Shown piece by piece: positions 3,409 through 26,794 of a DNA stretch of 39,981 nt. The position numbers and the translations under genes are program-made. A model generated the notes under the pieces. It was given only the letters and a program-made list of their open reading frames with translations, did no database searches and was not told the DNA's origin. The number at the start of each line of letters is the position of its first letter. Within the stretch, counting starts at the first letter, position 1. This DNA is from an uncultured Planctomycetota bacterium (lineage in GTDB: Bacteria; Planctomycetota; Brocadiia; CAIUPP01): NCBI GenBank assembly GCA_903901045.1, contig CAIUPP010000013.1, positions 1-39,981 of the forward strand, written 5' to 3'.

Positions 3409-3424
3409 ACGCCGTGACTCCATT

Positions 3425-3796
3425 TCATACTGAATGTATTGCCTCGAATCCGTCGGAAGTGAACCGGTATATACCGTAACCGACCTCAAATACTGCCGTC
3501 TGGCCCTCTTCCATTCGCGCATATCGGACGCCTCTGCTCTTGACAACCGGCTTGCCGCTTTCGCGCACGTCTGCTGGGTTCCTCACTGGAATTAGTACTG
3601 TTGCGATCGTATTAGCTGGAATGGGCACTTTGGAACGGAGAACCCAATTCAGTCGCGGTCTTGATATGTCTACGCCCAACGGGCTCGTGCGGTATTCATC
3701 GCCGCACGAAAACGGCCGCGTGTGGTCCAGTGCGTATTCGCCATAGTTCAGCTTCCACGTACATTTGTCAAGAAGAATGACCGAATGGACAGTCAT
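3425..3796 (-). pseudogene. Collapsed GH78-type alpha-L-rhamnosidase (N- and C-termini joined)
   Basis: The 123-aa frame is open, but its parts belong to the two ends of a much longer enzyme. Residues about 34-55 (DEYRTSPLGVDISRPRLNW) match the N-terminus of bacterial alpha-L-rhamnosidases, where the consensus is EY..NPLGID...PRLSW. From residue 56 the sequence jumps to VPIPANTIATVLIP and later EVGYGIYRF, which match the extreme C-terminal beta-sandwich of the same family (IPANTTATV...EVGSG.Y.F). The roughly 800 central residues, including the (alpha/alpha)6 catalytic barrel, are missing. The junction is near base 3631 and is in frame. The ATG overlaps the region just after the 35-codon remnant upstream, and the stop sits one base before a downstream ATG. 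The segment is less GC-rich than its neighbours, consistent with drift. It cannot be catalytic. Confidence 0.7.
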
Positions 3797-3800
3797 GCAA

Positions 3801-3908
3801 CTATAAGTAATACACGTTGATGCAAGAGCCTTCCTTGACTATTTTCACAACCCGCCGGGCCACATTGGCACCAATCATATCCGTCGCCCCCGTAACCCGG
3901 ACCTTCAT
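3801..3908 (-). pseudogene. Truncated N-terminus of an NAD-dependent epimerase/dehydratase
   Basis: A 35-codon frame starting MKVRVTGATDMIGANVARRV and stopping at TAG (3801-3803). The opening matches the first beta-alpha unit of extended short-chain dehydrogenases (MKVLVTGATGFIGSNVARRL), with the middle glycine of the GxxGxxG dinucleotide-binding motif changed to Asp. Everything beyond the first helix is lost. Its ATG overlaps the stop of the GH42-like gene (ATGA), and a good AGAGAGGAACC ribosome-binding site precedes it, so the start signals are intact while the enzyme is gone. Confidence 0.6.
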
Positions 3909-5908: not shown

Positions 5909-6002
5909 GGCGAGTCTCCTGTTTGCTGTTCCAAGCCCAGAACGGCTTTCCGCGATAGATGCTTCTCGGCGTGGCGAAATCGGCGAGCAGTTTCTTGTTC
6001 AT
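5901..6002 (-). pseudogene. Truncated N-terminus of a GH106-like glycoside hydrolase
   Basis: A 33-residue frame reading MNKKLLADFATPRSIYRGKP followed by FWAWNSKQETRHA. The block P..YRGKPFWAWN is the characteristic start of large GH106-like alpha-L-rhamnosidase-type proteins (YRG.PFWAWNG.L). After WNSKQ the frame ends in TGA inside the first codons of the next gene. The ATG overlaps the stop of the MFS gene (ATGA), the arrangement expected of an intact coupled gene. The remaining 700 or more residues are absent from the window, so this is a relic. Confidence 0.6.
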
Positions 6003-7417
6003 GGCGCGCTACTCAGGCTCTTCAAGTTCATTCCGCTTTCTTCGGCTGGTTCGGATTTAGGCCACCGGGACAGGATGACGATCAGGACCAAAGATATACT
6101 GCTGAAGAACGCGGGGAAGAGGTAGATCATCCGGTAGTTGTTGTGGAAGACATCCAGCAGCCTGCCGGCCAGCGGGCTGAGCACGGCCACTCCGGCCGCG
6201 CCGACAATAGCGCTCGCCGATCCCCACTGGCCATATTGAGCACGCGGATACTCGTCCACCATCCACTTGAGCACCGCAATGTAGAGCAGGCCGCTGGGAA
6301 TAGACATCATCGGAACCAGCACGAACGCGGAGAGTCGACCGTGTATCCCGACGAAGCAGAGCAGATTGCAGAGGATAACAGCGATCACACCGACTATCAG
6401 TGACTTATAGCTGCCCCATCGGTCCACGAGCGCGCCCATCGGCGCCGCCAGCACCAGCGAGATGATCAGGCCGATGCTCCCCAGCCGTCCGTACTCCGTT
6501 TCGCTCAGCCCAATCTGGTCGCGATAGAAATATAGGAAGAAGATATTCGCCGCGCTGCCCCAGCCCATCGTGCCATAGATAAGGAAGACGACCCAGTTGC
6601 GCGCCGAGCCGAAGCACTCGCCAGCGTAGTTCCGGATGGGCGAATACCAGTGCCCATGGTCCTCCTTGATTTCCGGGTAGCCTCCCTCTCGCACTTTCCA
6701 ACACATCAGCATGAACGAAATGCCGTACAGCCCCCCGAAGACGGCAAAGAAGAGCCGCATGTGCGCGTGGGCATGCCCGAACAGGAACCAGTTGAAGCCC
6801 AGCGCCGCCACGCCGCCGCACACGCGAAAGAGGCCCATGAACCGGCCGATGAGCGGTTCGGGAACCGTATCGGGCACCAGGTAGTAATAAACCGTGCATG
6901 TAAACATGTTGAAGACCTGGAAGCAGGCGATCAATATCCCAAACGTGAGCACCAGCGGAGCCACGGGGCACAGCGCCAGGACGGCGCGCGCCGATTCGTG
7001 CCGCATCAGGGCCGCCGCGATTTCGGGCGCCCACGGGATCAGGATCAGAAAGAGCGTCACGAACGGAGTCGTAAATAGCAGAAACGGACGCCGTCGCCCC
7101 CAGCGGCCGCGGTGGCGGTCGGATGCATAGCTGATAACGGGGTTCAGAAGGATGTTGCAGATCGTGAAGATCGTCGTCAGCAGCGCGGCCTTGGCCTGAT
7201 TGCTGATCTCGTAATCACCGAGTTGCATGACCAGCAGCCCCGGCATCGCCTCCATCAGACAAAAGACCACGTCGCCCCACAGCAGCCAGCCGAACAGCGT
7301 TGCTAGCGCGGCAGGGGTGTAGTGGAGCGTGCCGCAGGTGTACTTGTCCTGCGCCACTCCCGTCGCTCCGGCGTCTCCGATGAACCACTTATGAAACCGC
7401 TGCGTCGTGTTTCCCAT
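5999..7417 (-). CDS. MFS sugar transporter (GPH/MelB-like)
   Basis: 472-aa integral inner-membrane protein with about 12 hydrophobic helices. The loop between helices 2 and 3 has the major-facilitator signature SDRHRGRWGRRRP (99-111), the form typical of glycoside-pentoside-hexuronide and related cation-coupled sugar symporters. A central cytoplasmic stretch (about 245-275) divides two six-helix halves, and a related DRWGSYK loop recurs in the second half. It probably imports an oligosaccharide or glycoside by cation symport and is the only transporter in the window. The ATG at 7417 follows AAGGTGAG closely. The gene lies 54 bp after a secreted 982-aa protein and overlaps the GH106-like remnant. 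The exact substrate cannot be read from sequence. Confidence 0.88.
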   Translation of the reverse strand: MGNTTQRFHKWFIGDAGATGVAQDKYTCGTLHYTPAALATLFGWLLWGDVVFCLMEAMPGLLVMQLGDYEISNQAKAALLTTIFTICNILLNPVISYASDRHRGRWGRRRPFLLFTTPFVTLFLILIPWAPEIAAALMRHESARAVLALCPVAPLVLTFGILIACFQVFNMFTCTVYYYLVPDTVPEPLIGRFMGLFRVCGGVAALGFNWFLFGHAHAHMRLFFAVFGGLYGISFMLMCWKVREGGYPEIKEDHGHWYSPIRNYAGECFGSARNWVVFLIYGTMGWGSAANIFFLYFYRDQIGLSETEYGRLGSIGLIISLVLAAPMGALVDRWGSYKSLIVGVIAVILCNLLCFVGIHGRLSAFVLVPMMSIPSGLLYIAVLKWMVDEYPRAQYGQWGSASAIVGAAGVAVLSPLAGRLLDVFHNNYRMIYLFPAFFSSISLVLIVILSRWPKSEPAEESGMNLKSLSSAP

Positions 7418-7471: not shown

Positions 7472-10420
7472 TTAGCGCGCCGCCGCTTCGACCAACGGCT
7501 TGAGGTCTTGCGCTTTGACGGCCACGACGTAGTCCATACGGTACTTCGTGCTCCATGTCTGTCCCGCTTTCAGCGGCTGCGCCCGGTACATCCATTCGAT
7601 GCTGACGGTCTTCTGGTCCGGACCGCACCAGCTATGGAACTGCGAGACTTCCGGAGCCTCGACCTTGCAGACCACGGCGTCGTCACCGGCCGCGTTGTAC
7701 TGGGCGATCCAATTCCCAGTGGTGGCGCCGGTCCGGCCGGTTCGCTCAATATCTTCATTGCCGGGCGACATCGGTTCGTTCGGCTTTGCCCAGTAGACGT
7801 CCGCTGCCGGCGCCTTGGCCGGCCCGGCGGCCGTCTGCATGTAAACCTCTTGCACCATCTCCCTGGCAGCCGGGATATCGGCCGTGAAGAACATGTGGTG
7901 CGCCCAGAAGGCAAAATTCACAGCCGGAGCCGGCCCGGGGTTTTCCACCGTCACTTCAACTTCGATGCCCGGCTGGGTTTCACGAATGCTGATTGTCTTC
8001 GTGACAATCAGGTTGCTGAGCGCCGCCGTCGTCTTCTTCTGCCGGAGAGTCAGATAGGCAACGCCGCCATGTGCCGAACCGGATACTACTTCATAGGGCA
8101 TAATCTCGTCGCCGGACCACATCGCGCCGGTGGGAACCCAGAAGAGATCCTTACCGGCGCCTCCGTAGAAGTCGAAGGCATTCTTGATCGGATCCGCATT
8201 TTCCCGGATCAAGTGCCAGCCGACAATCCGGCCGCCTTTGTTCGGCCGGACTTGAACTTCCTGCCAGGGACTTTTCATCGAAATGCCGACCTCGTTCCCG
8301 ACCATGGTCCTCGTGATGGAGAGTCCCCCTCGTTCGGCCAGTTTCTCGGCCCTCACGTCGGGCTTGCAGTATTGAGCCAGCGCCTTCTCGCAGCTTTCAA
8401 GGCTGACGCTGTTGGCCGCCCGCGGGGCGTCTTTGGCGGGTTCCACCATGAGGAGCGTAACGCCGTATTGCGGCGGCGTCCTGATCACAACCCCCTTGGC
8501 CAGGCGCGCCGATGAAACCGTGCAGGACTTGGCGTCCTCCCAGAAGTTCGTCTGCTCGCTCACATCCGTCACGCGATACTCGCCCTGCGGAAGGCCCATA
8601 CAGGCTACGCGAGCGAAGACCTCCTTGTCGGTGTTAACGTTGATGATCCCCACCAGCCGCGTGTTCCCATTCGCGATGCATCGGTGGAGGACGCTGGCCT
8701 CGAAATCGGGGACGCTTATCCGGCGTTCTTCCTTGCCAACGGTCATGAGTATGTGGTGCTCGGGAATGAAGGCGATGGTCACCCCGGCGGGGTCTTTCTG
8801 CCCGTCCAGGATAATGTCCTCAAGCCGGCTGATTTCCCGGTTCGTCCGCGCGATCCAGGAGAACTGGCGCGCGCCGAATTCGCACATAAACATGCCGTAT
8901 CCCCTGGCGCCGCCGAGGAGCGCCCCCCAGACGAAGGCGCGCAGCGCTTCGCCCGGGTCTCCGCCTCCGCTCCCCAGGTAGTAGTCCCGCGCCTGCCCCC
9001 AGAAGAGCGGCTCCAACGGAACCGCCACACGCGGCGCGATGGCCCGCGACCAGATGAAGGCATCCTTCACCTGCTGCACGCCGTGCTCGTACCACATGGG
9101 GTACATTACGTCCATGATTTCCTGGAAACGGCGGGTGGGATAGGGGTTCAAATAATAGGTCATTCTTCCCGCCTCGTCCTTCCCGACTTCGATCATGTCC
9201 GACATGACACTGTTGTCGTTGGTCATGACCTGTTGCGGCAGCGCCCCCAACCTGACGGTCGGGTTGGCGGCCTTGGCGACGTCGTGGAACAACTTGTGAA
9301 CGGCCAGCGTCTGTTCGGCCCGGAAATCCCCCCATTGCGTCCGATGCTCCGCCCATATCTTGGCCGGGGTCAACGCCGCGGCGTCCAACCCGAACCGCGC
9401 GGCAAACGCCCTAATCCCCGCCGGAGAGAACCCGTTGTCCCAATTCGCGTTCCACTCGATATCCTGCGATACGACCTCTTTCCCTAGCGCAAAATTGCGA
9501 TAGTTCTCAATGTCCCCGGCCCACGGCTTTCCCTTTTCGTCCAGGATCCATTGCAGGTCAGTGTCGTACGGCCAACCGCCGGTGGCTATCGGCCTCCCAA
9601 GATGGTCCTGATTCCGGTAGTCGGGGTTGTCGGTCCTGGCGTTCTCCGCGGCGGGAAAGCCGGTGATCCCGGCCTGGTCGCCGACGATTCGCATCCCCTT
9701 CTCGCGCGCGGCAATCAGAGATTCGGCCGTGAGTGCCCCTGCGACCAGGTCCGTAACGCCCACCCGCTGCAGGAACGCCAGAACCGGCTCCAGCTTGGCC
9801 GGCGAGATCCTGACGTTGGAAGGAGCCCAGAGCCTCACATGAATTCGCTTCGGCTGCTGCGTTTCCAGCGGCATCGGGAGCAACTGGATGGGCGCCACCC
9901 TTTCCGCTTCCACACCCCACGGCGTGACGAAATGCCATGCAAAAACGCCAGGGGCCGCGCGGTCCGCCGGCGTGGGCCTGGGAACCCACGTGCTGTAGAG
10001 GACCTCCCATCCTATCTTGACCTGAACCGCACTGCGGAACAGGCCCTTGAACTGGTATCGCTTGTACGGTTTCCCGTCCCGAGTCACGTCGCTGACGACA
10101 GGCGCATGCATCGCCGGGTCAAACTGGTCCGTGGCGTCCAACAGGTCCACATACGCGGGGACTTCGACGACAGCCGCCCACTTGTCGGAATCCTCCGGAG
10201 TGACTTTGGCCGCGTCGGCTAGCGGATAGCATAGCTCTTCGAGATTGGGCGCGCCGTCAATGAGGTTGCAGGTCATCGCCTCGTCGCTGACGGGAAAGAC
10301 TTTCGATCTGGGCGCAACTTCCTGCGCGACTGCAAGGCCCACGCCGAAGCAGCACAACAGCGCGACTGACAACCACTTTTGCGAATGCGTACCCAACGAC
10401 ATCTTGCTTTGCGCCCTCAT
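7472..10420 (-). CDS. Secreted 982-aa protein of unknown family (paralogue A)
   Basis: Not assigned to a named family. Residues 1-33 form a signal peptide (basic start, hydrophobic WLSVALLCCFGVGLAVA, AQE junction). The protein is collinear over its whole length with 22046-24994, which is also 982 aa. Shared blocks are VVEVPAYVDL, PGVFAWHFVTP, QDIEW (DIEW 320-323), GFSPAGIRAFA and WGDFRAEQ, then a C-terminal part of about 300 residues that resembles a galactose-mutarotase-type supersandwich. The middle (about 200-560) looks like a TIM barrel, and DIEW offers conserved acidic residues, so a periplasmic glycoside hydrolase or lyase is plausible but unproven. RBS AGGAGGAG lies seven bases before ATG 10420. 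It sits between an ASRT-family protein and the MFS transporter. Confidence 0.75.
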   Translation of the reverse strand: MRAQSKMSLGTHSQKWLSVALLCCFGVGLAVAQEVAPRSKVFPVSDEAMTCNLIDGAPNLEELCYPLADAAKVTPEDSDKWAAVVEVPAYVDLLDATDQFDPAMHAPVVSDVTRDGKPYKRYQFKGLFRSAVQVKIGWEVLYSTWVPRPTPADRAAPGVFAWHFVTPWGVEAERVAPIQLLPMPLETQQPKRIHVRLWAPSNVRISPAKLEPVLAFLQRVGVTDLVAGALTAESLIAAREKGMRIVGDQAGITGFPAAENARTDNPDYRNQDHLGRPIATGGWPYDTDLQWILDEKGKPWAGDIENYRNFALGKEVVSQDIEWNANWDNGFSPAGIRAFAARFGLDAAALTPAKIWAEHRTQWGDFRAEQTLAVHKLFHDVAKAANPTVRLGALPQQVMTNDNSVMSDMIEVGKDEAGRMTYYLNPYPTRRFQEIMDVMYPMWYEHGVQQVKDAFIWSRAIAPRVAVPLEPLFWGQARDYYLGSGGGDPGEALRAFVWGALLGGARGYGMFMCEFGARQFSWIARTNREISRLEDIILDGQKDPAGVTIAFIPEHHILMTVGKEERRISVPDFEASVLHRCIANGNTRLVGIINVNTDKEVFARVACMGLPQGEYRVTDVSEQTNFWEDAKSCTVSSARLAKGVVIRTPPQYGVTLLMVEPAKDAPRAANSVSLESCEKALAQYCKPDVRAEKLAERGGLSITRTMVGNEVGISMKSPWQEVQVRPNKGGRIVGWHLIRENADPIKNAFDFYGGAGKDLFWVPTGAMWSGDEIMPYEVVSGSAHGGVAYLTLRQKKTTAALSNLIVTKTISIRETQPGIEVEVTVENPGPAPAVNFAFWAHHMFFTADIPAAREMVQEVYMQTAAGPAKAPAADVYWAKPNEPMSPGNEDIERTGRTGATTGNWIAQYNAAGDDAVVCKVEAPEVSQFHSWCGPDQKTVSIEWMYRAQPLKAGQTWSTKYRMDYVVAVKAQDLKPLVEAAAR

Positions 10421-10476
10421 GACGACTCCTCCTGTCTTGTTTTGTTTCCTGCAACAGCTTAAGCGCCAGCCTGAAC
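10352..10476 (-). repeat. Leader plus signal-peptide module, diverged copy
   Basis: On the minus strand the 56 bp before ATG 10420 (with TTCAGGCTGGCGCT, AAGCTGTTGCAGGAAACA and a GGAGGAG ribosome-binding site) align with the second half of the repeat at 26792-26911. The similarity continues past the start codon: about 49 of the first 69 coding bases match those of the unrelated LamG-like gene at 26794, including ATG and TGGTTG..GTCGCGCTG. The encoded signal peptides align as M..Q..M..G..S..WL.VAL.C.F. Counts are by eye. Confidence 0.55.
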
Positions 10477-10851
10477 TTATTCACAAAAACCGACGCCGAC
10501 ATAATACGCCATGTTCGCCTGTGTCGTATCGAGGCGCCCGAATTGTGCGACGAGCGGCCGGTCCGATTTGACGCGAAGGGCATACTGAGTCAGGGGGGGA
10601 ATGACCGTACCTCCGATCTCATCCGGATGATCCAACCGAAGGGTGCGGACCCGCTCCGCTTCCACGTTCGTGGAAATGTCATGGATCGCGGGCCTATCCG
10701 TAAAGTAAAAGCTTATTCTCACATTGGCCGGTTCATTTCCGGTGTTGAGGAGCATCAGGGCCTCATGCGCCTCCATTTTGCTGTCGCCGGTTTTCGCCGG
10801 GAGGTAACCGTCAGGGAAGTACCACGTCTTTGCGCCACCCTTTGTCTTCAT
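10477..10851 (-). CDS. ASRT-family (sensory rhodopsin transducer-like) protein
   Basis: 124-aa soluble protein matching the Anabaena sensory rhodopsin transducer family (PF07100-like). It contains KTWYFPDGYLPA, MEAHEALMLLNTG, ISFYFTDRP, AERVRTLRLD and the closing VAQFGRLDTTQANMAYY. The length is right for this beta-sandwich domain, which has been proposed as a general small-molecule, probably sugar-binding, module. No rhodopsin gene is nearby, so light signalling is unlikely here; a sugar-sensing or binding role fits the locus (inference). ATG 10851 is preceded by AAGGGAG. It lies 11 bp after the URO-D-like gene and 56 bp before the secreted 982-aa gene, in one direction with both. Confidence 0.8.
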   Translation of the reverse strand: MKTKGGAKTWYFPDGYLPAKTGDSKMEAHEALMLLNTGNEPANVRISFYFTDRPAIHDISTNVEAERVRTLRLDHPDEIGGTVIPPLTQYALRVKSDRPLVAQFGRLDTTQANMAYYVGVGFCE

Positions 10852-10862
10852 TTGTTCTCCCT

Positions 10863-11948
10863 TCAGACCTTGCCGGATGCTTCCATCACGAGTTCCCGGT
10901 AGTATCGATAGTTGTCAAAGGAGACATCCGGCGGCACGGCGTGATCGCACGCCGGAATAAACCCACCCTCTTCGAAGCAGGCCCGCAATTGGGGCAGGAC
11001 TACGTTCCGAATGTCGCTCCGCGTGCCGGCCAGCACGCGTTTGTCAATGCCGCCAAAGAAGCCGATGCGCTTTCCGTACTGCTTGCGCAGCGATACGACG
11101 TCCATTCCGGCCGCGACCTCCATGGGGTGCATGATGTTGACCCCCGCGTCCAGCCAGAATGGGACAATCTCCCGGATGTCCCCATCGGAGTCCACCATTG
11201 CCACAGGGATGCCCGCCGCATGCACCCTGTCCATGACCGCCCGGTAATAAGGCACGCAGTAACGCTTGAACAGACTTGGCGAGATCAGGGGGCCGTTCTT
11301 ATACGCAAGGTCTTCCCAGAACATCACCCAATCAAGTTGCATGCCGGATTCCAGGACCCGATTCAGCAATCCCAGCGACAAGTGCGTGAGGCACTCAACC
11401 ATCTCTTCGATCAACGCCGGGTCGTCATACAACAACACGGAAATCTGCTCCATGCCCCACCAGTTGCGCATGTACCCATAGGTTCCTCCCAGCCACATTC
11501 CCAGGGGATAATCGCGGTCAGGGCATTTTGCCACGAGTTCAGGAAGATCAGGCGGGAGACGTTCAGGCGTATCGGGATTGAGCCGAGACCTGTAATCTTC
11601 CCAGTCTGCACGGGATTGCAGAGGGTAGCTGATCCACACCGGCATGGCGGGCGGGGGAACGTTCTTCAGTTTCTTGACAACTTCGCCCCCCGTCCGCACG
11701 GTCTGGTACTCTTCCGTCTCTTCCACAACCACCCTCTCGTAGCGCGGCAGGACGGCCAGATTAGCGGGCACTCTCCATTGGAACGGGTCGAAGTCCATTC
11801 CGAAGTATTCATTAAGGTCGACGCCCGGAGGCAATCCCTCCCGCTCCCATCGTTGCTGGGTTGAATCGTAGGCGAAGTAGTCGCCGGACGCGGGGCGATC
11901 CGGCGCGCCGAATGTCATGGTCTCCAGGAAGCGTTGTCGTCGGTTCAT
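10863..11948 (-). CDS. Uroporphyrinogen-decarboxylase-like protein, paralogue 2
   Basis: 361-aa URO-D-superfamily TIM barrel beginning MNRRQRFLETMTFGAPDRP. It shares with 2257-3408 the motifs FWEDLAYKNGP (210-220), VDSDGD (252-257) and IPACDHAVPPDV (331-342). The HxC zinc site of MtaA/MtbA-type methyltransferases is replaced by DSDGD, and CDH is retained, so a rearranged metal or substrate site is possible. ATG 11948 has AGG eight bases upstream and starts one base after the M24 stop; a GTG at 11957 would add three residues. It is probably translated with the M24 gene. Cytoplasmic, reaction unknown; conversion of a sugar or acid released from the target glycan is speculative. Confidence 0.78.
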   Translation of the reverse strand: MNRRQRFLETMTFGAPDRPASGDYFAYDSTQQRWEREGLPPGVDLNEYFGMDFDPFQWRVPANLAVLPRYERVVVEETEEYQTVRTGGEVVKKLKNVPPPAMPVWISYPLQSRADWEDYRSRLNPDTPERLPPDLPELVAKCPDRDYPLGMWLGGTYGYMRNWWGMEQISVLLYDDPALIEEMVECLTHLSLGLLNRVLESGMQLDWVMFWEDLAYKNGPLISPSLFKRYCVPYYRAVMDRVHAAGIPVAMVDSDGDIREIVPFWLDAGVNIMHPMEVAAGMDVVSLRKQYGKRIGFFGGIDKRVLAGTRSDIRNVVLPQLRACFEEGGFIPACDHAVPPDVSFDNYRYYRELVMEASGKV

Positions 11949-11949
11949 G

Positions 11950-13119
11950 CTAAGCACCTGCCTTTCCGCAGAGTTCCCGGATCAGTGGGGTCAATGATTC
12001 CGCTCCCTTCGGGCCGATGACAAACCCCTCCTCGATGCGATTCGACCCGCAGGGGTGGCCGAAGAGGCTGATGTCCGAATTCACGCACATTCCCGAGCGC
12101 AGGGGATAATCCGCTTTCTCGTTGGGGTATGGGGATTCGGCCTCCGCCAGACCAATGCCATGCATGGGTGGATAGACATCGTACTGCGAGAGCTTGTGCT
12201 TCCTGAACACATCCCGGACGGCTCGCACCATTTCCCCGGCGTTCGCGCCGTGGTGCAAATAGCCGAGTTGGACGTTAGCTGCCTCAAAGAGCACGGCAAG
12301 GAACTGTTTCTGCCCCGCGCTTGCCTTGCCCGCAACGAAGGGGAACTCCACAGTTGCCACGTATCCCTGATACTGCACCGCCATGGCCGCCATGATCATG
12401 TCACCGTCCTGGATGACGCGCTCCGTGGCCCGGCCGATTATCGTCGCCGTGCGCGGACCGCTCCCGAAGACCGTGAAATTGATGTCTTCCGCCCCCGCAA
12501 TCCGCGCGGTGCCCTCCGCGGCCCCGGCAGCCATGGTTTCCGTATGACCGGGCACAGCAGCCTCGATTAGTCTGGCGTACCCCAGGCAAGCCTGTCGTCC
12601 GGCTTCGCGCAAACACGCGATTTCCGCCCTGGACTTGACCAGGCGCATTTCCTGGATGAGCGACGCGGCGTCCACAATCTCGGCGCCCGGCGCGACGCTC
12701 TTGACGCGTTCGAAGATCGGCGCGGGAATGTCCCACTGGCCGACCAATCCCAGCCTCTGGCCATTCCCCAGCGTCTGGCGGATAACCTCTTTGAGGGAGG
12801 AGAACTTCGCAAGCGGGTAGTCAATTTCCTCCGGCACCGACACGCAGGCGAATTCCTGGACGTTGCGCACGTCCGGCCAGACGTTCATCTCACGCGCATA
12901 CCGCTCCCCCTCCGGCGCGCTCGCAAGGATTGGATCGCCCTTCCGAGGAATGAAGCACATGGCCCGCTCGAAGATCGGCCAGAAGTTGCAGACGTAACGC
13001 AGGTTCTCTTTTCGGTACTCGTCGCCGTAGACCATCAGGCCATCGAAATGTTTCTCCTCCATCAGGCCCTGAACACGCTCAAGCCGTTTCCGAAACTCCG
13101 CCTTCTCGATTCTGATCAT
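11950..13119 (-). CDS. Creatinase-like M24 family protein lacking two metal ligands
   Basis: 389 aa. The N-terminal creatinase/prolidase domain spans about 1-155 and the pita-bread M24 domain about 160-389. Of the five usual dinuclear-metal ligands, the two Asp positions are A245 and T256 (in MIMAAMAV and GYVATVEF), the first Glu is D349, and only H320 (MHGIGL) and E363 (NRIEEG) are retained. It is therefore unlikely to be a metallo-aminopeptidase and is closer in logic to creatinase, which uses the same fold without metal to cleave an amidino C-N bond. The start at 13119 has GAGGAG nine bases upstream. It lies next to the esterase remnant and a URO-D-like gene. Substrate unknown. Confidence 0.8.
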   Translation of the reverse strand: MIRIEKAEFRKRLERVQGLMEEKHFDGLMVYGDEYRKENLRYVCNFWPIFERAMCFIPRKGDPILASAPEGERYAREMNVWPDVRNVQEFACVSVPEEIDYPLAKFSSLKEVIRQTLGNGQRLGLVGQWDIPAPIFERVKSVAPGAEIVDAASLIQEMRLVKSRAEIACLREAGRQACLGYARLIEAAVPGHTETMAAGAAEGTARIAGAEDINFTVFGSGPRTATIIGRATERVIQDGDMIMAAMAVQYQGYVATVEFPFVAGKASAGQKQFLAVLFEAANVQLGYLHHGANAGEMVRAVRDVFRKHKLSQYDVYPPMHGIGLAEAESPYPNEKADYPLRSGMCVNSDISLFGHPCGSNRIEEGFVIGPKGAESLTPLIRELCGKAGA

Positions 13120-13122
13120 GTC

Positions 13123-13620
13123 TCACATCTCCTCACTTTCATGGGTCCGAAGCCTGGGCGCCGGCCCGGCGGAGCGCCGCAACAAGCAACGTGGATTGAT
13201 TCGTCGGCACGAGATTATCCGCTGCGCCGTGGACGGCCAAGCAGGGCGGCGCGTCGTCTTAAGTCCGACCAAAGCGCATAAGTGCCCTCCGGCCGACCCT
13301 CCCGTCAGCCCGATCCGCTGCGCGTCGAGCCCATGAACGACCGCGTTGCCGGCAACCCAGTCCAGCACTGCAGAAATGTCCTCTTCCTGTGCCGGATGGC
13401 AATGAGTTCCCGTGTGCCGATAGTTTGGATTGACCGAAGCAATGTTGACCTCGGCCAGGACACGAGAGTAAGGCTCCATTATTTCCTTCTCCCCGTGTAT
13501 CCACCCGCCGCCAAAGATGCACACCACCACCGGGAAAGGGCCCACGCCATCCGGCGTGAAGAGTTCCAACTTTCCTCTGTCGCTGTCGGCGCGGCAGGGC
13601 AGGTTTCGCGTGACTCTCAT
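13123..13620 (-). pseudogene. Alpha/beta-hydrolase esterase with internal deletion and frameshift
   Basis: The first 120 residues are a normal BD-FAE/HSL-like esterase start: oxyanion motif FGGGWIHG (36-43) and nucleophile GGSAGG (S109). After ALVGL (residue 120, base 13263) the frame turns into low-complexity RRPAWPSTAQR. In another frame, from 13258 to the TGA at 13139-13141, the strand encodes DDAPPCLAVHGAADNLVP and then NQSTLL.AALRRAG, which is the late acid-residue segment of the same fold. About 80 residues between these parts are missing, and the C-terminal part with the catalytic His is absent. The ATG still overlaps the isomerase stop (ATGA), and the region near the stop provides the ribosome-binding site of the M24 gene. 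Inactive relic. Confidence 0.72.
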
Positions 13621-17915: not shown

Positions 17916-18995
17916 TCACACAGGCACGAGTTCATAGGCATGGAATTCATTGCGGCATGGCGGCGCGTCCGCCACGAATAGGACTCCCGGCCGACTCTGA
18001 GGCAGCGCATACGTCGCGGTCACTGTGCCGTCGTTGCAGATGCAATTGGGGTGGCCGGCGTGCGAACGCAACAGGTGCTGCATCGTCCTGACCGTGCGCG
18101 GCATCGACGCGCGGGCGCGCTCCAGCGTGGCAAACCGCGTCATTGAGTATTCCGTCACTTTCGGCACACAACCGGCGGCGGTCACCTTGGCCACAAGTTC
18201 GGGCATATGGATGTGGTTCGTGTTGAAGAGGAAGTCCTGCTTCCCTTTTGCCGGCTGGAATGCCTGGCAGAACCCGCCCAGACTCTGGCACGCGACCAGG
18301 TTGCCTTTCGCGTCGCCGATCACGAGGCTCTCGGTGGACTGGATGCGCTTCAGCATCTTCAGGGCCTGCGGCACGTCCTCGCATCTTTCCAACAGGATGC
18401 GCCCGCTCGTCGAATTCCGGATCCGTCGCTTTGAATTGTCATAGGACAGTCCCGGCACGGTGCACCCGAGGCTGGATTGCGCGAGGCACAGCCCTGCCGC
18501 GTTCGTGCCGTTGTGCCCCCAGCAGGAACCCGCCCAGATGACCTGCACGTGCGAGATGCCGTTGCGTGGGATGCGACGGATCAGGACATAGCTCTGGCGC
18601 GGATCGTCGAGCGTGCCTCCCACGATCACGCCGTCTTTCTTCGCGATCATCCCAATGCCCGTGCAGCCGCCGCTGGACGGGGTCAGTTCCTTCCTCGGCA
18701 CGTTGTTCCAGACGCGCAGGTGCATCCGCGTGATTAGCGCCAATGGAACGCGGCTTCCCTCGGCGATGCCCCGCAACTCATCGAAGACCCACGGCGCGAA
18801 CGTCTCGTCGCCCCGGCGGATCGGTTCGAGCGCCTTGTCCGACTCTTCATCCGTCCCTTGAAAATCGTGCCGTAGCGCGTAGGCATGGATGTTGGCGACG
18901 ATGACGTGACGGTACGCCTGGCCGTGCTGCAGCCCCATTTCATAATGCGAACCGCGGACGGTTTCGATCGGCATGGCAAGGTTTGGGATGTTCAT
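17916..18995 (-). CDS. AAT/C45-type Ntn amidohydrolase
   Basis: 359-aa member of the acyl-CoA:6-aminopenicillanate acyltransferase family (PF03417, peptidase C45), a group of N-terminal-nucleophile hydrolases that cut linear amide bonds. The self-processing site is GGCTGIGM, leaving C111 as the new N-terminal nucleophile. Downstream VIVGGTLDDPRQ, GLCLAQSS and NTNHIHMPE fit the family. No signal peptide. The ATG at 18995 overlaps the GH2 stop (ATGA), with AGGGG upstream. It is probably a deacylase for an N-acyl compound freed by GH2 or PIG-L; the true substrate is unknown. Confidence 0.83.
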   Translation of the reverse strand: MNIPNLAMPIETVRGSHYEMGLQHGQAYRHVIVANIHAYALRHDFQGTDEESDKALEPIRRGDETFAPWVFDELRGIAEGSRVPLALITRMHLRVWNNVPRKELTPSSGGCTGIGMIAKKDGVIVGGTLDDPRQSYVLIRRIPRNGISHVQVIWAGSCWGHNGTNAAGLCLAQSSLGCTVPGLSYDNSKRRIRNSTSGRILLERCEDVPQALKMLKRIQSTESLVIGDAKGNLVACQSLGGFCQAFQPAKGKQDFLFNTNHIHMPELVAKVTAAGCVPKVTEYSMTRFATLERARASMPRTVRTMQHLLRSHAGHPNCICNDGTVTATYALPQSRPGVLFVADAPPCRNEFHAYELVPV

Positions 18996-21900
18996 GTTCT
19001 TGTCCCCTTTTCTTTTCCTGACCGCGCCGCGCGGCGCGATTCCCGGGCATTGGGGTCGAGAGCGACGTCGCTCTTGTACATTGAAATGTCTTTGGTCTCA
19101 CGGGCGATCAACTCGCGGAGGTCCTCCACTGCCGCTTCGTTCCGAGGCGCGAACTCATCGCTCGAAGCGTAGGAGAGCACCTCGTCGAAAAGATACACGG
19201 TCGCCGGATCATCCCAGTGCAGCGACAGTGCGCAACCCAATAGCCGCCCTTCGCCGACCCGATATTCGTAGAGCAGCGCCTGTTTCCGAACGCGCTTGAA
19301 CGAACTCGCCAGTTCGAGGAGTGGATCGAATGCCAGGTTCAGTCCATTGAAAATCGGCGGGTTGGCGTGATGCAGAAGCGAATAGAACTGCCAGTTGCAG
19401 TAGCCGTCATGGGGAAAGCGCCGGAAGATCGGATGGTCGGCGATGACGGTGGCTATGTCACCGTACGGACGTCCCGAAAATGCGGGGTGGAAAGTGTGCA
19501 TGACCTCGGGCTTCGAATCCTGCCAGAGCAGGACGACACGGCCGCCGCGCCGGAGGAACTCGACCGTCTCGTCGCTGAGGTCTGAGACGATCCGCAACGG
19601 CGCCGTGGGCGCCTCCCTCAGGGAAGGAAGGCGCGCAAACCGGCTTTTGAGTCTCTCAGCGGAAGCGGCGTCCACAGCCGCTGAGACCGAAACCGGTTCG
19701 CGTCGCGGGAAGACCCAGAAGTCCCACTGGTTCTCGAGTTCCACCTTCTCGCCGGAGAGGCGCACGTGCAATGTGAGTTTCCGCGCGTCCGTCAGAACCG
19801 GCATGGAAAACTTGATCGCGCCGAGCGAGGTAATCGCGCCGTTGGGCATGTCCCGGGCAGAGAGACTTCCGCGACTGTGGATTGCTCCGCTATCGTCGCG
19901 GACGTGCCAGACAATATCGGCCTTGGAGATCGGCCCAGGCCCGTAGTGTGAAATCAGCAGTTCCAGGTCGAACAGGTCTCTGCTAAAGAAATTCCGCCGC
20001 GTGGTGTGGTCAAGGAGCAGGACACTCTCGTTGTTGTAGCGGAGGACGTTCTCTCGCGTCTCTCCAGGCTTCATCTCGTAGAAATCGTTGAGCACGCCGC
20101 AGGGATAGCCGGTGCGGTGCCAGTGGTGGTCGGAGCCGCCCAGAAGATCGTACCCCTGGGCCTGCGCGCAACGGCGGGCCATCTCGACGTAGTATTTGCG
20201 CCACAGGGCTGTCACTGCGCCGCTGTTGCGGTAGTAGAGACTCGCCCGGTCAAGCACTCCTTCCTCACGCAGGTGTTTGCGCGCGGCGGCATAGAGGGCC
20301 GTGCCGATGCGCGTGCCCTCATAACGATGTTCGAGATCGAGGTCCAGGTACGTCCCCAGGATGCACAACTCATGGATCAGATGTGGATGATCGTCCTTCA
20401 GCCAGCGCCAAAGTCCGCCCAGCCCTTTCCAGTCGCCTTTCCAGGAACTCGCCCGGTTCAGCCATGCGAGACGGGTCTGAGGCCACCCATATTCCATGTT
20501 GCAGGGGAGGCTCTCAAACACGTCAGAGAAGTCGCCCAGGAGCGCGTGTCGTCTCGAATTGACCCGCTGCTCCGGCGAAAACGAATCAGGCCCGGGACCG
20601 GCGTCGGGTTCGACGTTGGTCGGGCTCCAGCCGTACTCGACCCCCCGCAGAGCCTCCATCGGGCTGAAGAGCGCGTCCGGGACGTGCTTGCGCTGGAGCG
20701 CCTGCATTTGGCGCAGGAACTCGATCATGGCTTCGTCAAGCAGTTCCTCGTTCCCGCCGCAGTAGAGCACGACGGAGGGATGCCGCCGGCAGGTTCGCAG
20801 GATGTCGAGCCACTCGCCTTCGCCGAATCCGCAGGGCGGCTCGACCTGGATCAGGAACCCCAGTTCGTCGGCCGCCTGCATGTACTCCTCGTTCGGCACC
20901 CAGGTGTGGAACCGCAGCCAGTTGAATCCCAGCGATTTCAGCCTCCGCAGGTTGCTGCGATACGTCTCCGCGCAGATGGGCGCCGTGCAGGTGAACGGAA
21001 AATAGTGGTGGTCGCAAACCCCGCGCATGTAAATGGGTGTGCCGTTGAGGCGCAGCAATATCCCATCCCGCTCCAATCGACGAAGGCCAAAGGGCTGCGC
21101 GCACTGATCCTGAACCGCATCCCCCTGTTTCACGCGCACTTCGACTTCGTAGAGGATCGGGGAACGGTCGGACCATGTCCGCATGTTGAAGGTCCCCGTG
21201 GTCCATTGCGCCTGTCCGCCCTCGCCTGCCGCGATGCCCTCGGCCAGGGGCTTGCCGCTCAACGGTTCTCGGACGGACCACTCCGCCCGCCAAGACTTGT
21301 CCGGGACCTCATCGCCGCAACCGGAGAGTTCCAGGTTCCAGACAAGCTCCTGATTGTCCCGGCGCGGATACAGGTACAGGGAGCGGATGCGGAGTTTTCC
21401 CCCAACCTTCAGGCAGACGGGACGAGTGATCCCGGCGCTGCATCCGGAATAGCCGCGGATGGAGCAGCCTCCCCATCCGGTCCGCATGTTGGCCACGGCG
21501 ATGAGAAGCTCGTTCTCTTGTCCACTCTTTAGATGCTTCTCCAGCGACATCTCAAATGGGGTGGAATGCCCAAGGTGATATCCGACGAACTGCCCGTTCA
21601 GCCAGACCCACGCTTCGAGCGCCACGCCGCCGACATGCAAGGTGACCGTGCGGCCGTCCCACTCCGGCGGCGCGATGAAGCGCTTGCGGTACCAGCCCGT
21701 ACCGATGAGATAGGGAAGCGATGCGTCCGGGAGCGCCGCCCCGGACGGGAAGGCAATCGGATGGGCGTTGGGATTGAAAGAGGCCTTCCTCCAATTCGAG
21801 AGTATCCGTACGCGGTCGAGATGGTCGTCCCAGTATGCGGGCACAGGCATGCTGGTCTCGAAAGCCGCCGCATCGGGAATTTCTGAAGGTTTGTCAGTTT

Positions 21901-22003
21901 GTCCGCCTCGCCGGACCATAGTGGTTTGGTCGCGGTCTCTGCCCTTGTCATCAGGCTGATAGGCAAACGCCCACTCGCCATCCAGCGATACGGTCAGGCC
22001 CAT
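18992..22003 (-). CDS. GH2 glycoside hydrolase (beta-galactosidase/beta-mannosidase-like)
   Basis: 1003-aa GH2 enzyme. The N-terminal sugar-binding jelly roll (about 10-200) contains GTGWYRKRF and AWVWLNGQFVGYH. Immunoglobulin-like domains follow, then the TIM barrel with RGVCDHHYFP, acid/base in CGGNEE (E419) and probable nucleophile in NMEYGW (E504). About 400 further residues of beta-rich sequence extend beyond the barrel, longer than a minimal GH2. No signal peptide is seen, so cytoplasmic action on imported substrate is likely. ATG 22003 is chosen because GGAGGAAAC lies directly upstream; earlier ATGs at 22042 and 22030 have none. Its end overlaps the AAT-like gene. Specificity within GH2 cannot be decided by eye. 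Confidence 0.88.
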   Translation of the reverse strand: MGLTVSLDGEWAFAYQPDDKGRDRDQTTMVRRGGQTDKPSEIPDAAAFETSMPVPAYWDDHLDRVRILSNWRKASFNPNAHPIAFPSGAALPDASLPYLIGTGWYRKRFIAPPEWDGRTVTLHVGGVALEAWVWLNGQFVGYHLGHSTPFEMSLEKHLKSGQENELLIAVANMRTGWGGCSIRGYSGCSAGITRPVCLKVGGKLRIRSLYLYPRRDNQELVWNLELSGCGDEVPDKSWRAEWSVREPLSGKPLAEGIAAGEGGQAQWTTGTFNMRTWSDRSPILYEVEVRVKQGDAVQDQCAQPFGLRRLERDGILLRLNGTPIYMRGVCDHHYFPFTCTAPICAETYRSNLRRLKSLGFNWLRFHTWVPNEEYMQAADELGFLIQVEPPCGFGEGEWLDILRTCRRHPSVVLYCGGNEELLDEAMIEFLRQMQALQRKHVPDALFSPMEALRGVEYGWSPTNVEPDAGPGPDSFSPEQRVNSRRHALLGDFSDVFESLPCNMEYGWPQTRLAWLNRASSWKGDWKGLGGLWRWLKDDHPHLIHELCILGTYLDLDLEHRYEGTRIGTALYAAARKHLREEGVLDRASLYYRNSGAVTALWRKYYVEMARRCAQAQGYDLLGGSDHHWHRTGYPCGVLNDFYEMKPGETRENVLRYNNESVLLLDHTTRRNFFSRDLFDLELLISHYGPGPISKADIVWHVRDDSGAIHSRGSLSARDMPNGAITSLGAIKFSMPVLTDARKLTLHVRLSGEKVELENQWDFWVFPRREPVSVSAAVDAASAERLKSRFARLPSLREAPTAPLRIVSDLSDETVEFLRRGGRVVLLWQDSKPEVMHTFHPAFSGRPYGDIATVIADHPIFRRFPHDGYCNWQFYSLLHHANPPIFNGLNLAFDPLLELASSFKRVRKQALLYEYRVGEGRLLGCALSLHWDDPATVYLFDEVLSYASSDEFAPRNEAAVEDLRELIARETKDISMYKSDVALDPNARESRRAARSGKEKGTRT

Positions 22004-22045
22004 TACGTTTCCTCCATGAAAGCGTCGCATAATAGTTCCCACGGG

Positions 22046-24994
22046 CTATGGCGCGGTGGGTATCAAGTGCGCGGGAATGTCCGAGGGTTTGACATCGGCC
22101 ATGTACCGCAGCAGATATTTCGTGTTCCAGCTCTTGCCTACGTCCAAGCGGACCGCTGGACACATCCATTCGAGGGTCAGTTGGTCCATAAGGCCGACAT
22201 CGGTGTATCGGTAGGAACTGAACTGGGTCACGGAGGGGGTCTCGACCTGGCACAGGATCATCTCACCATTGTCGGGGTTGCGCTGAGCAATCCAGTCGCC
22301 CGTCGTCTCGCCGCAGCGCGTGGCCTTCTCCCAGTCCTCCTGCCCCGGCGTAATGGGCGCGCCCGGCTTGGCCCAGAGGATTTCAAGCTTGTCCTTGGGC
22401 ACGAGCGCGACCCCTTTGGCTGTCTGAAGGTACACTTCGGGACAGTCCGCCAGCGTGTTTCCGGGGACGGGATTGGGCCCGAGATGAAAGACGTGGTTCG
22501 CCCAGAAGGCGATCTGCATGGACTTGGCGGCGTTCGCGTTGGTCACTTCGACCTCCACGAACACGTCGGTCCCTTGCTCCGGCACGATGTACTTCTTGGT
22601 GATCACCAATCCGCCGACTTGCGGCGGCTCCTTGAGCACGTGCCGGAACTCCAGCCAGGCGCATCCGGCGTGGACTGATGCGGACACCAGTTCGTAGGGA
22701 GCCCACACTTGCTCGCTGAAACGCATATCCGTTGGAACGTAGAAAATGTCTTTGGCCACTCCGCCTTCACGGCCCCACCAGCCCGACTCGACCACCGTCC
22801 TGTTTCCGTGTTTGATCCGCCACTCCTCGATCATCGCTCCGTGGTCAGGCCGGATCCATATCTGCTGTGCACCGCAGTCCACGAGAATCGCCTTCTGGCC
22901 TTTGATGATCTCTTCGCGCACCGAGATGCCGCCGTGCTCAGCCAGAACGGCGCCTTCGGCATCCGGCTCGCGGTACTTCTCATAAGCCTGCGCCGCCGCG
23001 GCGGCGGGCTGGCGGGTCCAGTGGTCGGGCAGCGCGCCGGCGGCGGGGACCCGTTCCACAAGGATTGCGGTGACGCCCATGCGCGCGGGGGTCGTGACGA
23101 CGACGCCCTCGGCCAGTTCCTCGGCGCTGAACAGGTCCCGCTTCTCAGACGGAACGAGGAGTTGTTCCTCGCACACCAGCAGCGCGCGATAGTCGCCCTT
23201 GGGGAGGCCCGTGAACCGGACCTTGGCAAAGAGGTCCAGTCGCTCGTCCAAGTTGATCATGGTGGCCAGGCGTTGTTCTCCCAGCTTGTAGGTTCTCCAC
23301 ACGGTATTCGCAGCAAAATCGGGCTCGACCAGGGCCGTCTTCCGACCATCTTTGATGGTGGAGAAGGTCCGCTTGGGCATGAAGGTGACGGAGACATCGG
23401 ACACGTCCGGCATCCCGTCCAGCAGAATGTCCTCGACGCGCGCCAGTTCGCGCGAAGCCCGCGCCAGCCAGGACAACTGCAGAGGGCTGAACTCGCACAA
23501 CCAAAAGGCGTACCCCTTGGTGCCGCCCAGGACGCCGGCCCACGCGTTCGCCCGAAGCGATTCCTTCTCCATGGAGTAGGGCAGATAGAACTCCCGGCTC
23601 TGGCCGCTATAGAACGGAACCACGTCCACCTTGACACGCGGGGTCAGCGCCTTGGACCAGTTGAACGCGTCGCGCGCCTGGTCCGCGCCGGGCCCGTACC
23701 ACATGGGGACGATGAAATCAGAGCACTCCTGCAACCGGTCCAGCGGATAGCCCAACGCCAGATACTGCGGCCGGCCGACCTGATCTTTGCCCAATGAGGC
23801 CAGGTTCGACATGAGATTCTCATCGGATGTGATCGTCGTCTGCGGACAGAAGCCGTAACGCACGTTGGGGTTTGCCTTCTTTGCAGCCTGATAGTAGAGC
23901 CGCATGCAGAGCAGGAATTGCTCGGCCCGGAAATCGTTCCATTGCTTGCGGTAGTCCTTCCAGATAATCGGCGCGGTCAGCTTTGCGGCGTCGAGGTTGT
24001 TCTTTTTCGCAAAAGCCCGAATGCCCGCGGGCGAGAAGCCGGAATCGAAGAGCCAACTACCCCATTCGATATCCTCAATCACCACCTCGCACTGCGGGGT
24101 CGGCCAGCTGGCAGCAGCGGCCAAGTCCTTCTTCCACGGTTCGCCTTGAGTGTCAATGATCCACTGGAAGTCCTGCTTCCCATGGTCGTCGGTCCCCCCA
24201 AGCGTCGTCGGCTCGCTACGGCAATTGAAGTCCTTGTAATCGGGCTCAGGGCTGGGCGCCGACCATCGCGGCAACTCAAAGCCGCCGCCGATTCGGATTC
24301 CTTTCTCGGACAGGTGGCAGGTGCGCAGTTCATCGGGTTCCCCGGTACAGACCACGTTGAATCCCGCGCGCGAAAGCAGTTTCATCACGGGTTCGGAATG
24401 TCCCTTTTCGACATAGGCGAATGCAGAACACTGGTCGAATATGACTGTCAGGCGCTTGCACGGCGGCACGGCCGGCAGCTCCGGAAGGAGTCGAATGGGG
24501 TATTTCTGCTCCGGTTCCGTCCCGCCGGGAGTGACGAAATGCCAGGCGAAGACGCCGGGTTGCCGCCGATCCGCCTCGGTGGGCCGCGGAACCCACTGGC
24601 TCCAGAAGAAACCCGACCAGTTGGCGAAATAGGCGGCATGGCTCAGCGGGGGCGGAAGTGTGTATCGCCGGTACGGACGGCCATCACGCTCGATCTCTTC
24701 GACTTTCCGCACGGCCGTTCCGTTCGAGCCGGTGACGAGGGAGACCAGCTCGATGTAGGCGGGAACTTCGATGACGGCGAGGAAGTTCTCTGTAGCGGCT
24801 TTCGGCGCTTTCGCATCCGCGGGACAAGCGAAGTGCTCCACGTTCGGAAGGTTTTCGATCATCCAGGCAACGTGGTCGTCGCTGACGGGCCATACCTTCG
24901 AGACGGCCTCGCGCCCGGCCTCCGCCGCCTGCGCCGCGCCTGAAATGCAGACCGCCAGAAACAGAACGCCACAGAGCAACAGGTCCTTTCTCAT
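22046..24994 (-). CDS. Secreted 982-aa protein of unknown family (paralogue B)
   Basis: Full-length paralogue of 7472-10420. The signal peptide MRKDLLLCGVLFLAVC ends near AAQAAEA (about residue 24). Shared blocks are KVWPVSD, VIEVPAYIEL, PGVFAWHFVTP, IEDIEW (E310 in DIEW), GFSPAGIRAFA and QWNDFRAEQ, with a C-terminal mutarotase-like region containing QIAFWANHVF. The identity is clear but moderate, so the duplication is old or the copies have different substrates. ATG 24994 has AAGGTGAG a few bases upstream; a GTG at 25003 is possible. It precedes GH2 by 42 bp. A periplasmic carbohydrate-active enzyme is the best guess, with no family name to offer. Confidence 0.75.
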   Translation of the reverse strand: MRKDLLLCGVLFLAVCISGAAQAAEAGREAVSKVWPVSDDHVAWMIENLPNVEHFACPADAKAPKAATENFLAVIEVPAYIELVSLVTGSNGTAVRKVEEIERDGRPYRRYTLPPPLSHAAYFANWSGFFWSQWVPRPTEADRRQPGVFAWHFVTPGGTEPEQKYPIRLLPELPAVPPCKRLTVIFDQCSAFAYVEKGHSEPVMKLLSRAGFNVVCTGEPDELRTCHLSEKGIRIGGGFELPRWSAPSPEPDYKDFNCRSEPTTLGGTDDHGKQDFQWIIDTQGEPWKKDLAAAASWPTPQCEVVIEDIEWGSWLFDSGFSPAGIRAFAKKNNLDAAKLTAPIIWKDYRKQWNDFRAEQFLLCMRLYYQAAKKANPNVRYGFCPQTTITSDENLMSNLASLGKDQVGRPQYLALGYPLDRLQECSDFIVPMWYGPGADQARDAFNWSKALTPRVKVDVVPFYSGQSREFYLPYSMEKESLRANAWAGVLGGTKGYAFWLCEFSPLQLSWLARASRELARVEDILLDGMPDVSDVSVTFMPKRTFSTIKDGRKTALVEPDFAANTVWRTYKLGEQRLATMINLDERLDLFAKVRFTGLPKGDYRALLVCEEQLLVPSEKRDLFSAEELAEGVVVTTPARMGVTAILVERVPAAGALPDHWTRQPAAAAAQAYEKYREPDAEGAVLAEHGGISVREEIIKGQKAILVDCGAQQIWIRPDHGAMIEEWRIKHGNRTVVESGWWGREGGVAKDIFYVPTDMRFSEQVWAPYELVSASVHAGCAWLEFRHVLKEPPQVGGLVITKKYIVPEQGTDVFVEVEVTNANAAKSMQIAFWANHVFHLGPNPVPGNTLADCPEVYLQTAKGVALVPKDKLEILWAKPGAPITPGQEDWEKATRCGETTGDWIAQRNPDNGEMILCQVETPSVTQFSSYRYTDVGLMDQLTLEWMCPAVRLDVGKSWNTKYLLRYMADVKPSDIPAHLIPTAP

Positions 24995-25205
24995 GCCTCT
25001 CACCTTTTCATTCCGAACAAAAGGAAACAGAAGAGCGACCGTCTATCGGGACAGGGCCAGGAACCTCTCCATGAATTGCTGGACGGCTCCCTGTGCAACG
25101 TGTGAATGAACCATTCGGATTCTATTTCAGCATGGCCTTCGAATCCCACGCAATCTCTCCGGCAACCCCTCAGGTGCGCCGTTCGCTCGATCAGCCGCCG
25201 AGTGA

Positions 25206-25643
25206 TCAGCGACGACCGAACGCGCTCTTCCCGCACCTTGGGCACTTGTAGTCGGGCGGGGGTGGGGGGGTATCCAGCGCCCCTATCGGATGTTTATCCT
25301 TCCCTTGCGGTTCAATGGGAGGCTGCATTTGGGGAGGCCGCATCTCAGGAGCAGGAATGGGCCGGCCGCACGCCATGCACGTCATCACGTCAACCATGGT
25401 GTATTCGCCGGTCTTGGGACTCTTGTAGTGACAGGACTTGTCAGGCGCATATTTGCCTTGCCAGTCGCCGAACCGCTCTGTCATAACTTCCAGAGTTTTC
25501 AGGTCAATCCTATCAATCTTCTGATCCATCAACCACGCCGGCGGCTGGGGAGAGCCGCTCGTGGTCCGTTTCACAGTGATCACCACTCCGACGACGATGA
25601 CGACGAGCAGCACTGCGGCGAGCACGATCTTCTTGCGTCCCAT
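25206..25643 (-). CDS. Membrane-anchored zinc-ribbon-like protein
   Basis: 145 aa, family not recognised. Residues 5-23 (IVLAAVLLVVIVVGVVITV) form one transmembrane anchor after a short basic start, so the rest should be outside the cytoplasm. Two Cys pairs, CMACG (about 89-93) and KCPRCGK (about 134-140), could bind one zinc or iron. They are separated by a Pro-rich linker ending in a run of prolines. ATG 25643 follows GGGAGGAAG. It lies downstream of the LamG-like and prepilin-like genes, and the three may form one surface or export module. Function unknown. Confidence 0.65.
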   Translation of the reverse strand: MGRKKIVLAAVLLVVIVVGVVITVKRTTSGSPQPPAWLMDQKIDRIDLKTLEVMTERFGDWQGKYAPDKSCHYKSPKTGEYTMVDVMTCMACGRPIPAPEMRPPQMQPPIEPQGKDKHPIGALDTPPPPPDYKCPRCGKSAFGRR

Positions 25644-26044: not shown

Positions 26045-26794
26045 CTACTCAAGCCTTTCGTTCGCGAAATTGTCAATGCTTCCGATGAAGGGCTCGTTGA
26101 ACGCGTTCCCTTTTGTCGTTTCGTCATACCTCGCAAAGTTGCCGATATAAGCCTGATCGGCTGCATTGACAAGCAAGGTCGTTGTGCTCTCCGTTGAAAA
26201 ATCTTCCACCTTGTCGTCAATCAGCAGGACGTCGCCGTCGGCCCCATAGTAGAGGTCGAAATGATGCCATGCCTTCAAGGCCACCGGAGCAGAGGTCAGA
26301 TTGCGGTAGCCGTTCCCCATCGAGATGCTGGCGTATACTTCTCCTTTGACAGTGAATAACATAGCCATTTTGGTGTTGCCACCGGTACCGACGCTCAAGA
26401 GACAGCAGGCTTGCCCAACACCCGGGAGTTCAACCGGATAGAAGTCAAACGATATGTGGGCTTTGGCGGGCAGGTAATAGGGTATGTAGACGTGGCTTAT
26501 CGGGTCGGCGCCCTTGGGGAACACGAGGGCCTTGTGCTTTTCATCTGCGGCATCTTTCCCCGGGCCGAGCGTCGTAGAACCAAACAGATCTTGCTTCTGC
26601 TTGGTTGCAAAGTCTTCCTTCCAGGCGGTGATCACCTTCATCGCTTTGAACTTTGCCACAAGCGCCTTGGCCTGCTCATCGCTCCGGGCGTCGGCGAAAA
26701 CGCGCACTGGCAGGAGGGAGAAGACGCACATCAGCGCGACCGGCAACCACCTTCGCGAACGCGGCCCAAACAGCATGCTATCCTGCGTTCCCAT
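26045..26794 (-). CDS. Secreted LamG/concanavalin-like protein
   Basis: 249 aa with a signal peptide (RSRRWLPVALMCVFSLLPV, cleavage near VFA at 34). The mature part fits a LamG/concanavalin A-like jelly roll: ISFDFYPVEL, a central VGTGGNTKMAMLF, then WHHFDLYYGADGDVLLIDD, and the closing FIGSIDNF, a common ending of this fold. Such domains bind sugars or mediate adhesion and are often non-catalytic. ATG 26794 follows AGGAG eight bases upstream, and a start further upstream would run into the repeated leader. It lies between the prepilin-like gene and the zinc-ribbon gene. Its leader and signal peptide resemble those of the unrelated gene at 7472-10420. Confidence 0.7.
   Translation of the reverse strand: MGTQDSMLFGPRSRRWLPVALMCVFSLLPVRVFADARSDEQAKALVAKFKAMKVITAWKEDFATKQKQDLFGSTTLGPGKDAADEKHKALVFPKGADPISHVYIPYYLPAKAHISFDFYPVELPGVGQACCLLSVGTGGNTKMAMLFTVKGEVYASISMGNGYRNLTSAPVALKAWHHFDLYYGADGDVLLIDDKVEDFSTESTTTLLVNAADQAYIGNFARYDETTKGNAFNEPFIGSIDNFANERLE

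Follow-up and report, generated by a model that had tools for sequence, protein, structure and literature searches.

A rare pair of secreted planctomycete proteins, probably a new candidate glycan-active family of divergent GH42/GHL10-type barrels

A sugar-utilization gene cluster in an uncultured Planctomycetota bacterium (contig CAIUPP010000013.1, positions 1 to 39,981; this whole 39,981-nucleotide stretch is hereafter the window) encodes two large, similar proteins of no recognized family, raising the question of what they are related to and how they might act on glycans.

7472..10420, (-): copy 1 (P0001), 982 aa, predicted secreted, starting at an ATG
22046..24994, (-): copy 2 (P0002), 982 aa, read from the inner ATG at 24994

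A sequence-only reading of the window had described the two as secreted, end-to-end homologous and of identical length, and each of these points is borne out. BLASTP aligns them with 362 of 972 positions identical (about 37-38%; 592 bits, 33 gaps). Both are predicted to be secreted from a typical signal-peptide pattern at the start (basic n-region, hydrophobic stretch, AxA), which likewise appears at the start of their relatives. Both are 982 aa long with the chosen starts: copy 1 from its ATG, and copy 2, whose open reading frame opens at a GTG at 25003 (985 aa), from the inner ATG, where the ribosome-binding sequence is better placed. This shared length is a coincidence of gaps and carries no meaning of its own, with members from Candidatus Zipacnadia ranging from 957 to about 994 aa. 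Codon position 2 shows the fewest substitutions and position 3 the most, both between the two copies (0.47/0.42/0.59 for positions 1/2/3) and between two Zipacnadia members, Z1 and Z2 (0.20/0.14/0.51), indicating real genes under selection. A genome search found these two copies and no other in the genome that holds the window.

Relatives are few and are spread over two phyla. Among 392 genomes of the same phylum, a single-sequence search yielded proteins from just one genome besides that of the window (G126, two proteins 24% identical to the query); the other 74 genomes searched in the class of the window genome yielded no close member and one short C-terminal match (G393). A scan of 84,980 species genomes returned one close relative (L032, 44% identical) from Candidatus Zipacnadia, phylum Armatimonadota, with a second close copy in the same genome. 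Searching 291 Armatimonadota genomes added close members from three more genomes (G716, G435 and, as a partial one, G643), as well as a second tier of proteins that have the barrel motif and the C-terminal domain in common with the family. Within the genomes searched, close relatives (41-44% identical) are confined to Zipacnadia, and the viral contigs, plasmids and phages searched contained no relative of the family. Six full-length members, from the two phyla, are alignable throughout. A recent tandem duplication in the window genome was considered and rejected, as the two copies are as distant from one another as from the Zipacnadia proteins (41-44%). A tree leaves the branching order of the window copies and the Zipacnadia proteins open; together with these distances, this suggests that the pair is old or that the copies were acquired separately.

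The proteins are built, in order, from a signal peptide, a beta domain, a TIM barrel, a beta-sandwich and a mutarotase-like domain.

9875..10324, (-): copy 1 putative N-terminal beta domain, residues about 33-182 (six-member alignment)
8777..9874, (-): copy 1 TIM barrel, residues about 183-548 (GH42/GHL10 profile homology and fold search)
23381..24478, (-): copy 2 TIM barrel (barrel alignment and profile homology)
8426..8776, (-): copy 1 post-barrel beta-sandwich, residues about 549-665 (fold search, low-confidence model)
7475..8209, (-): copy 1 C-terminal galactose-mutarotase-like supersandwich, residues about 738-982 (fold search and relative L074)

The N-terminal domain of copy 1 contains a WVPRP/PGVFAWHF block. 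Residues 506-662 resemble the C-terminal sandwich of GH30, GH27 and GH36 enzymes (Z about 7, low-confidence full-length model). The mutarotase-like C-terminus that had been proposed is supported from two sides. Residues 738-982 match aldose 1-epimerase/mutarotase folds with Z up to 8.2 (the VIA match, over residues 745-967), and Foldseek returns GalM, aldose 1-epimerase and the YidC periplasmic domain at E about 1e-4, both with a low-confidence model; over the same C-terminal part, the relative L074 scores 24.6 bits against PF09095 (AmyA-gluTrfs_C), above the cut-off of 22. The top match of a C-terminal profile against the PDB is a hexose-6-phosphate mutarotase (E 0.45), which is not significant by itself.

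The central domain had been read as a probable TIM barrel, and profile homology to GH42 and GHL10 barrels, with which a fold search using a modest model agrees, allows its fold and superfamily to be placed with high confidence. The barrel alignment (n=28) comprised residues 183-548 of copy 1, five close relatives and 22 more distant barrels; GH42, GHL10 and GH18 profiles were built from genomes of the window's phylum and then compared by hhalign. Together with its second tier, the close family shows homology to the group of more distant barrels (99.9%, E 5e-37). Against GH42, hhalign gave 97.5% for the core plus second tier and 98.7% for the whole superfamily, over ~290 columns and the full barrel, and 41% over a short stretch for the core alone, so that the GH42 link, which extends along the whole length of the barrel, depends on intermediate second-tier sequences. 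Against GHL10 the values were 96.1% (core), 97.4% (core plus second tier) and 98.5% (whole superfamily), and the locally built GHL10 profile gave E 3e-6 to 0.01 in a six-sequence search. Superfamily profiles compared with PDB sequences ranked GH42 first, including the Thermus A4 beta-galactosidase (1kwg E 1.2e-6 and 2.5e-4), and the narrower core plus second-tier profile gave nothing significant in PDB sequences. A GH18-type chitinase barrel, suggested by the D-x-E motif described below, was rejected at an hhalign probability of only 0.4-6.3.

Low-confidence structural models agree with this placement. AlphaFold2 models built from three sequences only, leaving out the relatives from the genome searches, reached a pLDDT of 43.8 at full length and a mean pLDDT of 50.0 (pTM 0.53) for the barrel; the second half of the barrel model is poor, and the beta-7 region is therefore not seen in structure. 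The best Foldseek matches of the barrel model are GH42 enzymes (4uoq, E 1.2e-3). VIA-align with the same model (pLDDT 50) places it nearest to the C-terminal domain of PgaB (GH153; Z 10.3, rmsd 4.6, 217 residues aligned), with the GH42 structures 5xb7 (Z 10.0) and 1kwg (Z 9.5) and Cwp19 (Z 8.7) following. PgaB also has acidic residues at the end of beta-4; unlike the family, with which it shows no sequence match, it retains Glu607 at beta-7 (PMC5765458).

The barrel carries a conserved DIEW motif, as had been noted from the pair itself.

9452..9463, (-): DIEW motif of copy 1 (residues 320-323; D320 and E322), from alignments
24062..24073, (-): DIEW motif of copy 2 (residues 308-311 in the 982-aa numbering), from alignments

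It is invariant in 6/6 full-length close members, and across the superfamily barrels the Asp of D-x-E occurs in 27/28 (the exception, L056, has N-x-E) and the Glu in 28/28. The alignment of the superfamily profile with PDB sequences puts D-x-E over the D-N-E of GH42. In the GH42 alignment E322 falls on the acid/base Glu at the end of beta-4, and Ile takes the place of the preceding Asn. In relatives this Glu is followed by the same C-x-C..C..AF stretch as in GH42, and the family also shares with GH42 a Tyr near the end of beta-6. The family differs from GH42 in its lack of the beta-7 nucleophile, of the Asn before the Glu and of a Pfam GH42 match, and in its additional N-terminal beta domain and C-terminal mutarotase-like domain. 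By alignment, the position of the GH42 beta-7 nucleophile would correspond to L472/F473 of copy 1 and appears hydrophobic in 6/6 full-length members. GHL10 proteins such as Cwp19 (PF02638) share with the family a homologous barrel, the absence of a beta-7 nucleophile, a PMxY block at beta-6 and secretion; they differ in carrying FDYIRYP or DDY-type motifs at the DIEW position, and the family has extra domains and no Pfam GHL10 match. The GHL10 alignment places the beta-4 motif one or two residues away from its position in the GH42 alignment, and this difference in register leaves unsettled which acid is the acid/base.

The gene neighbourhood adds a candidate partner. At all Zipacnadia loci that can be judged (4/4), a gene for a secreted LamG protein lies directly upstream of the family gene, with overlapping stop and start (TAATG in Z1, TGATG in Z2, TTGA in Z3 and ATGA in Z4), and a homolog occurs two genes upstream of copy 2 in the window.

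26045..26794, (-): secreted LamG (concanavalin-like) protein, homolog of the Zipacnadia partner
25206..25643, (-): small membrane-anchored protein with a zinc-ribbon-like end, between the LamG gene and copy 2
18992..22042, (-): GH2 protein, 3 bases downstream of copy 2
10477..10851, (-): ASRT-domain protein (PF07100, E 6e-32), encoded immediately 5' of copy 1
5999..7417, (-): MFS/GPH-type sugar transporter, downstream of copy 1

The window LamG protein is 33% identical to its Zipacnadia counterpart over 245 aa (E 8e-34); its gene is not adjacent to copy 2, as a single small gene and roughly 1 kb intervene, and copy 1 lacks a LamG gene. A profile of the LamG partner, run against 179 fetched sequences (875 kb, overlapping loci included) that cover GH42, GHL10, GH18 and second-tier loci, had no additional matches outside close-family loci. 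In one Zipacnadia LamG gene (L034:3042-3850, minus strand), the coding sequence is divided between two frames next to a tandem duplication of roughly 22 bases, reflecting either a real frameshift or an assembly error. As the sequence-only reading stated, copy 1 precedes the transporter gene, which begins 54 bases after it, and copy 2 precedes the GH2 gene, which begins 3 bases after it. The ASRT domain is a predicted sugar-binding beta-sandwich (PMC2739507). The cluster also encodes GH35, GH4, melibiase-like and DUF4838 proteins, together with deacetylase-like proteins, an alpha/beta hydrolase and a GntR/LacI-type regulator.

The lack of an enzyme nucleophile in the usual place leads to the proposal that the substrate itself supplies one. 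Its basis is an analogy with Cwp19, a GHL10 protein in which Gly328 replaces the beta-7 Glu of its structural relatives PgaB, a GH42-type beta-galactosidase and a mannanase (PMC5765458). Cwp19 is a lytic transglycosylase, a type of enzyme in which a hydroxyl from the substrate itself takes the role of water (PMC6016235). In the family, Glu322 would protonate the glycosidic oxygen and Asp320, on the same face of strand beta-4, would hold the reacting group, while the nucleophile would be either a 2-acetamido group of the substrate or a hydroxyl giving an anhydro-sugar end as in Cwp19. Outside the cell, the mutarotase-like C-terminal domain may bind or position a polymeric glycan, as may the secreted LamG partner of copy 2 and of all Zipacnadia relatives that can be tested. 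The transporter encoded nearby would then import the products, for further breakdown by the cluster's GH2, GH35, GH4 and melibiase-like enzymes. As a prediction of function from sequence, there are about even chances that both belong to a new GH42/GHL10-like barrel family of secreted glycan-active enzymes with substrate-assisted, nucleophile-less catalysis. The nucleophile-less mechanism, taken by itself and by analogy with Cwp19, is a tentative proposal. The most specific form of the prediction, a glycosidase or transglycosylase with D-x-E and no enzyme nucleophile that works in two phyla as a two-component system with a translationally coupled, lectin-like LamG subunit, is doubtful.

A conventional two-carboxylate glycosidase, with E322 as acid/base and a displaced acid as nucleophile or inverting base, is fairly unlikely. 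The likeliest such acid is D/E479, in a GQxR[D/E] block just after beta-7, the strand that bears the nucleophile in GH42, where all six members are acidic; the other is D402, after beta-5, which is invariant in the six. Neither position is kept outside the close family, unlike D320 and E322, and the GH42 nucleophile position itself is hydrophobic by alignment. Five of the distant barrels (L064, L051, L065, L026 and L007) retain Glu at the beta-7 nucleophile position in a GGE/PAE block, which favours the conventional reading in that the superfamily thus contains ordinary carboxylate pairs; these five, themselves without a Pfam name, likely represent further GH-A-like families.

The missing nucleophile also invites the reading that the proteins are non-catalytic glycan-binding or surface scaffolds, former glycosidases that have lost this residue and bind polysaccharide on behalf of the GH2 enzyme or transporter nearby, LamG being a second binding subunit. 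The several beta domains and the binding-type LamG or ASRT partners would fit such a role. A dead enzyme would not be expected to keep D-x-E without exception in the close family and almost universally in the superfamily, however, and GHL10 lacks the same nucleophile yet is active (PMC6016235), so that a scaffold is unlikely.

Returning to the prediction of secreted glycan-active enzymes, the two proteins most likely constitute a new family in a known superfamily, as a branch of a larger, mostly unnamed group near GH42 and GHL10. The absence of a recognized family, claimed from the outset, holds across Pfam (Pfam-A 2025), NCBIfam (2026) and PDB sequences (2026), in which neither protein has a match: Pfam gives nothing for P0001 even at E 10 and only an unrelated weak match for P0002, and its GH42 (PF02449) and GHL10 (PF02638) models match none of the six full-length members. 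An already described CAZy family lacking coverage in Pfam, NCBIfam or PDB sequences is very improbable given these searches, although the no-match evidence on CAZy comes via these three collections and not via dbCAN/CAZy models, and some CAZy families, such as GH156 (PMC6254351), have metagenomic proteins as their founding members. No Armatimonadota glycoside hydrolase family came up in a literature search. The evidence probably describes a new, rare, secreted, candidate glycan-active family that forms a divergent branch of GH42/GHL10-type barrels. The unnamed D-x-E barrels around it (among L003-L083, from Armatimonadota and the window's phylum) have a homologous barrel and the same motif, and those of the second tier share a C-terminal domain with an EWM(Y) block; they differ in being about 17-25% identical, in their other N-terminal modules (CBM4/9, CBM9), in having no LamG neighbour and, in some branches, in their beta-7 Glu. 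This D-x-E superfamily is present in 25/291 Armatimonadota genomes, where it is largely unannotated, and becomes findable. An unnamed secreted family is thereby defined and placed in a large barrel superfamily, with named residues to test and a pointer to a mechanism without the usual nucleophile, and its dedicated LamG partner provides a concrete candidate two-protein complex.

Several further features of the cluster merit mention. A 103-base leader, its two copies 81% identical, immediately precedes the likely GH35 start (2160-2262) and the LamG start (26809-26911), both on the minus strand; no third full copy was found in the genome, and a stretch at about 10420-10535, just upstream of copy 1, is weakly similar to it. 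It is possibly a shared regulatory or recombination tract. Two URO-D-family proteins (2257-3546 and 10863-11957, minus strand) lie in the sugar cluster without an obvious methyl-transfer partner. A 667-aa protein (3905-5908, minus strand) has no Pfam family above the cut-off, and a short stretch of it matches the alpha-L-fucosidase structure 6tvk (E 9.5e-5). A 683-aa protein (30901-32952, plus strand), with no Pfam or PDB match except a weak GH85 hint (E 0.15), is a candidate for another unnamed glycan enzyme. At 13123-13620 (minus strand), a BD-FAE-type alpha/beta hydrolase covers about half of its family model and is apparently truncated.
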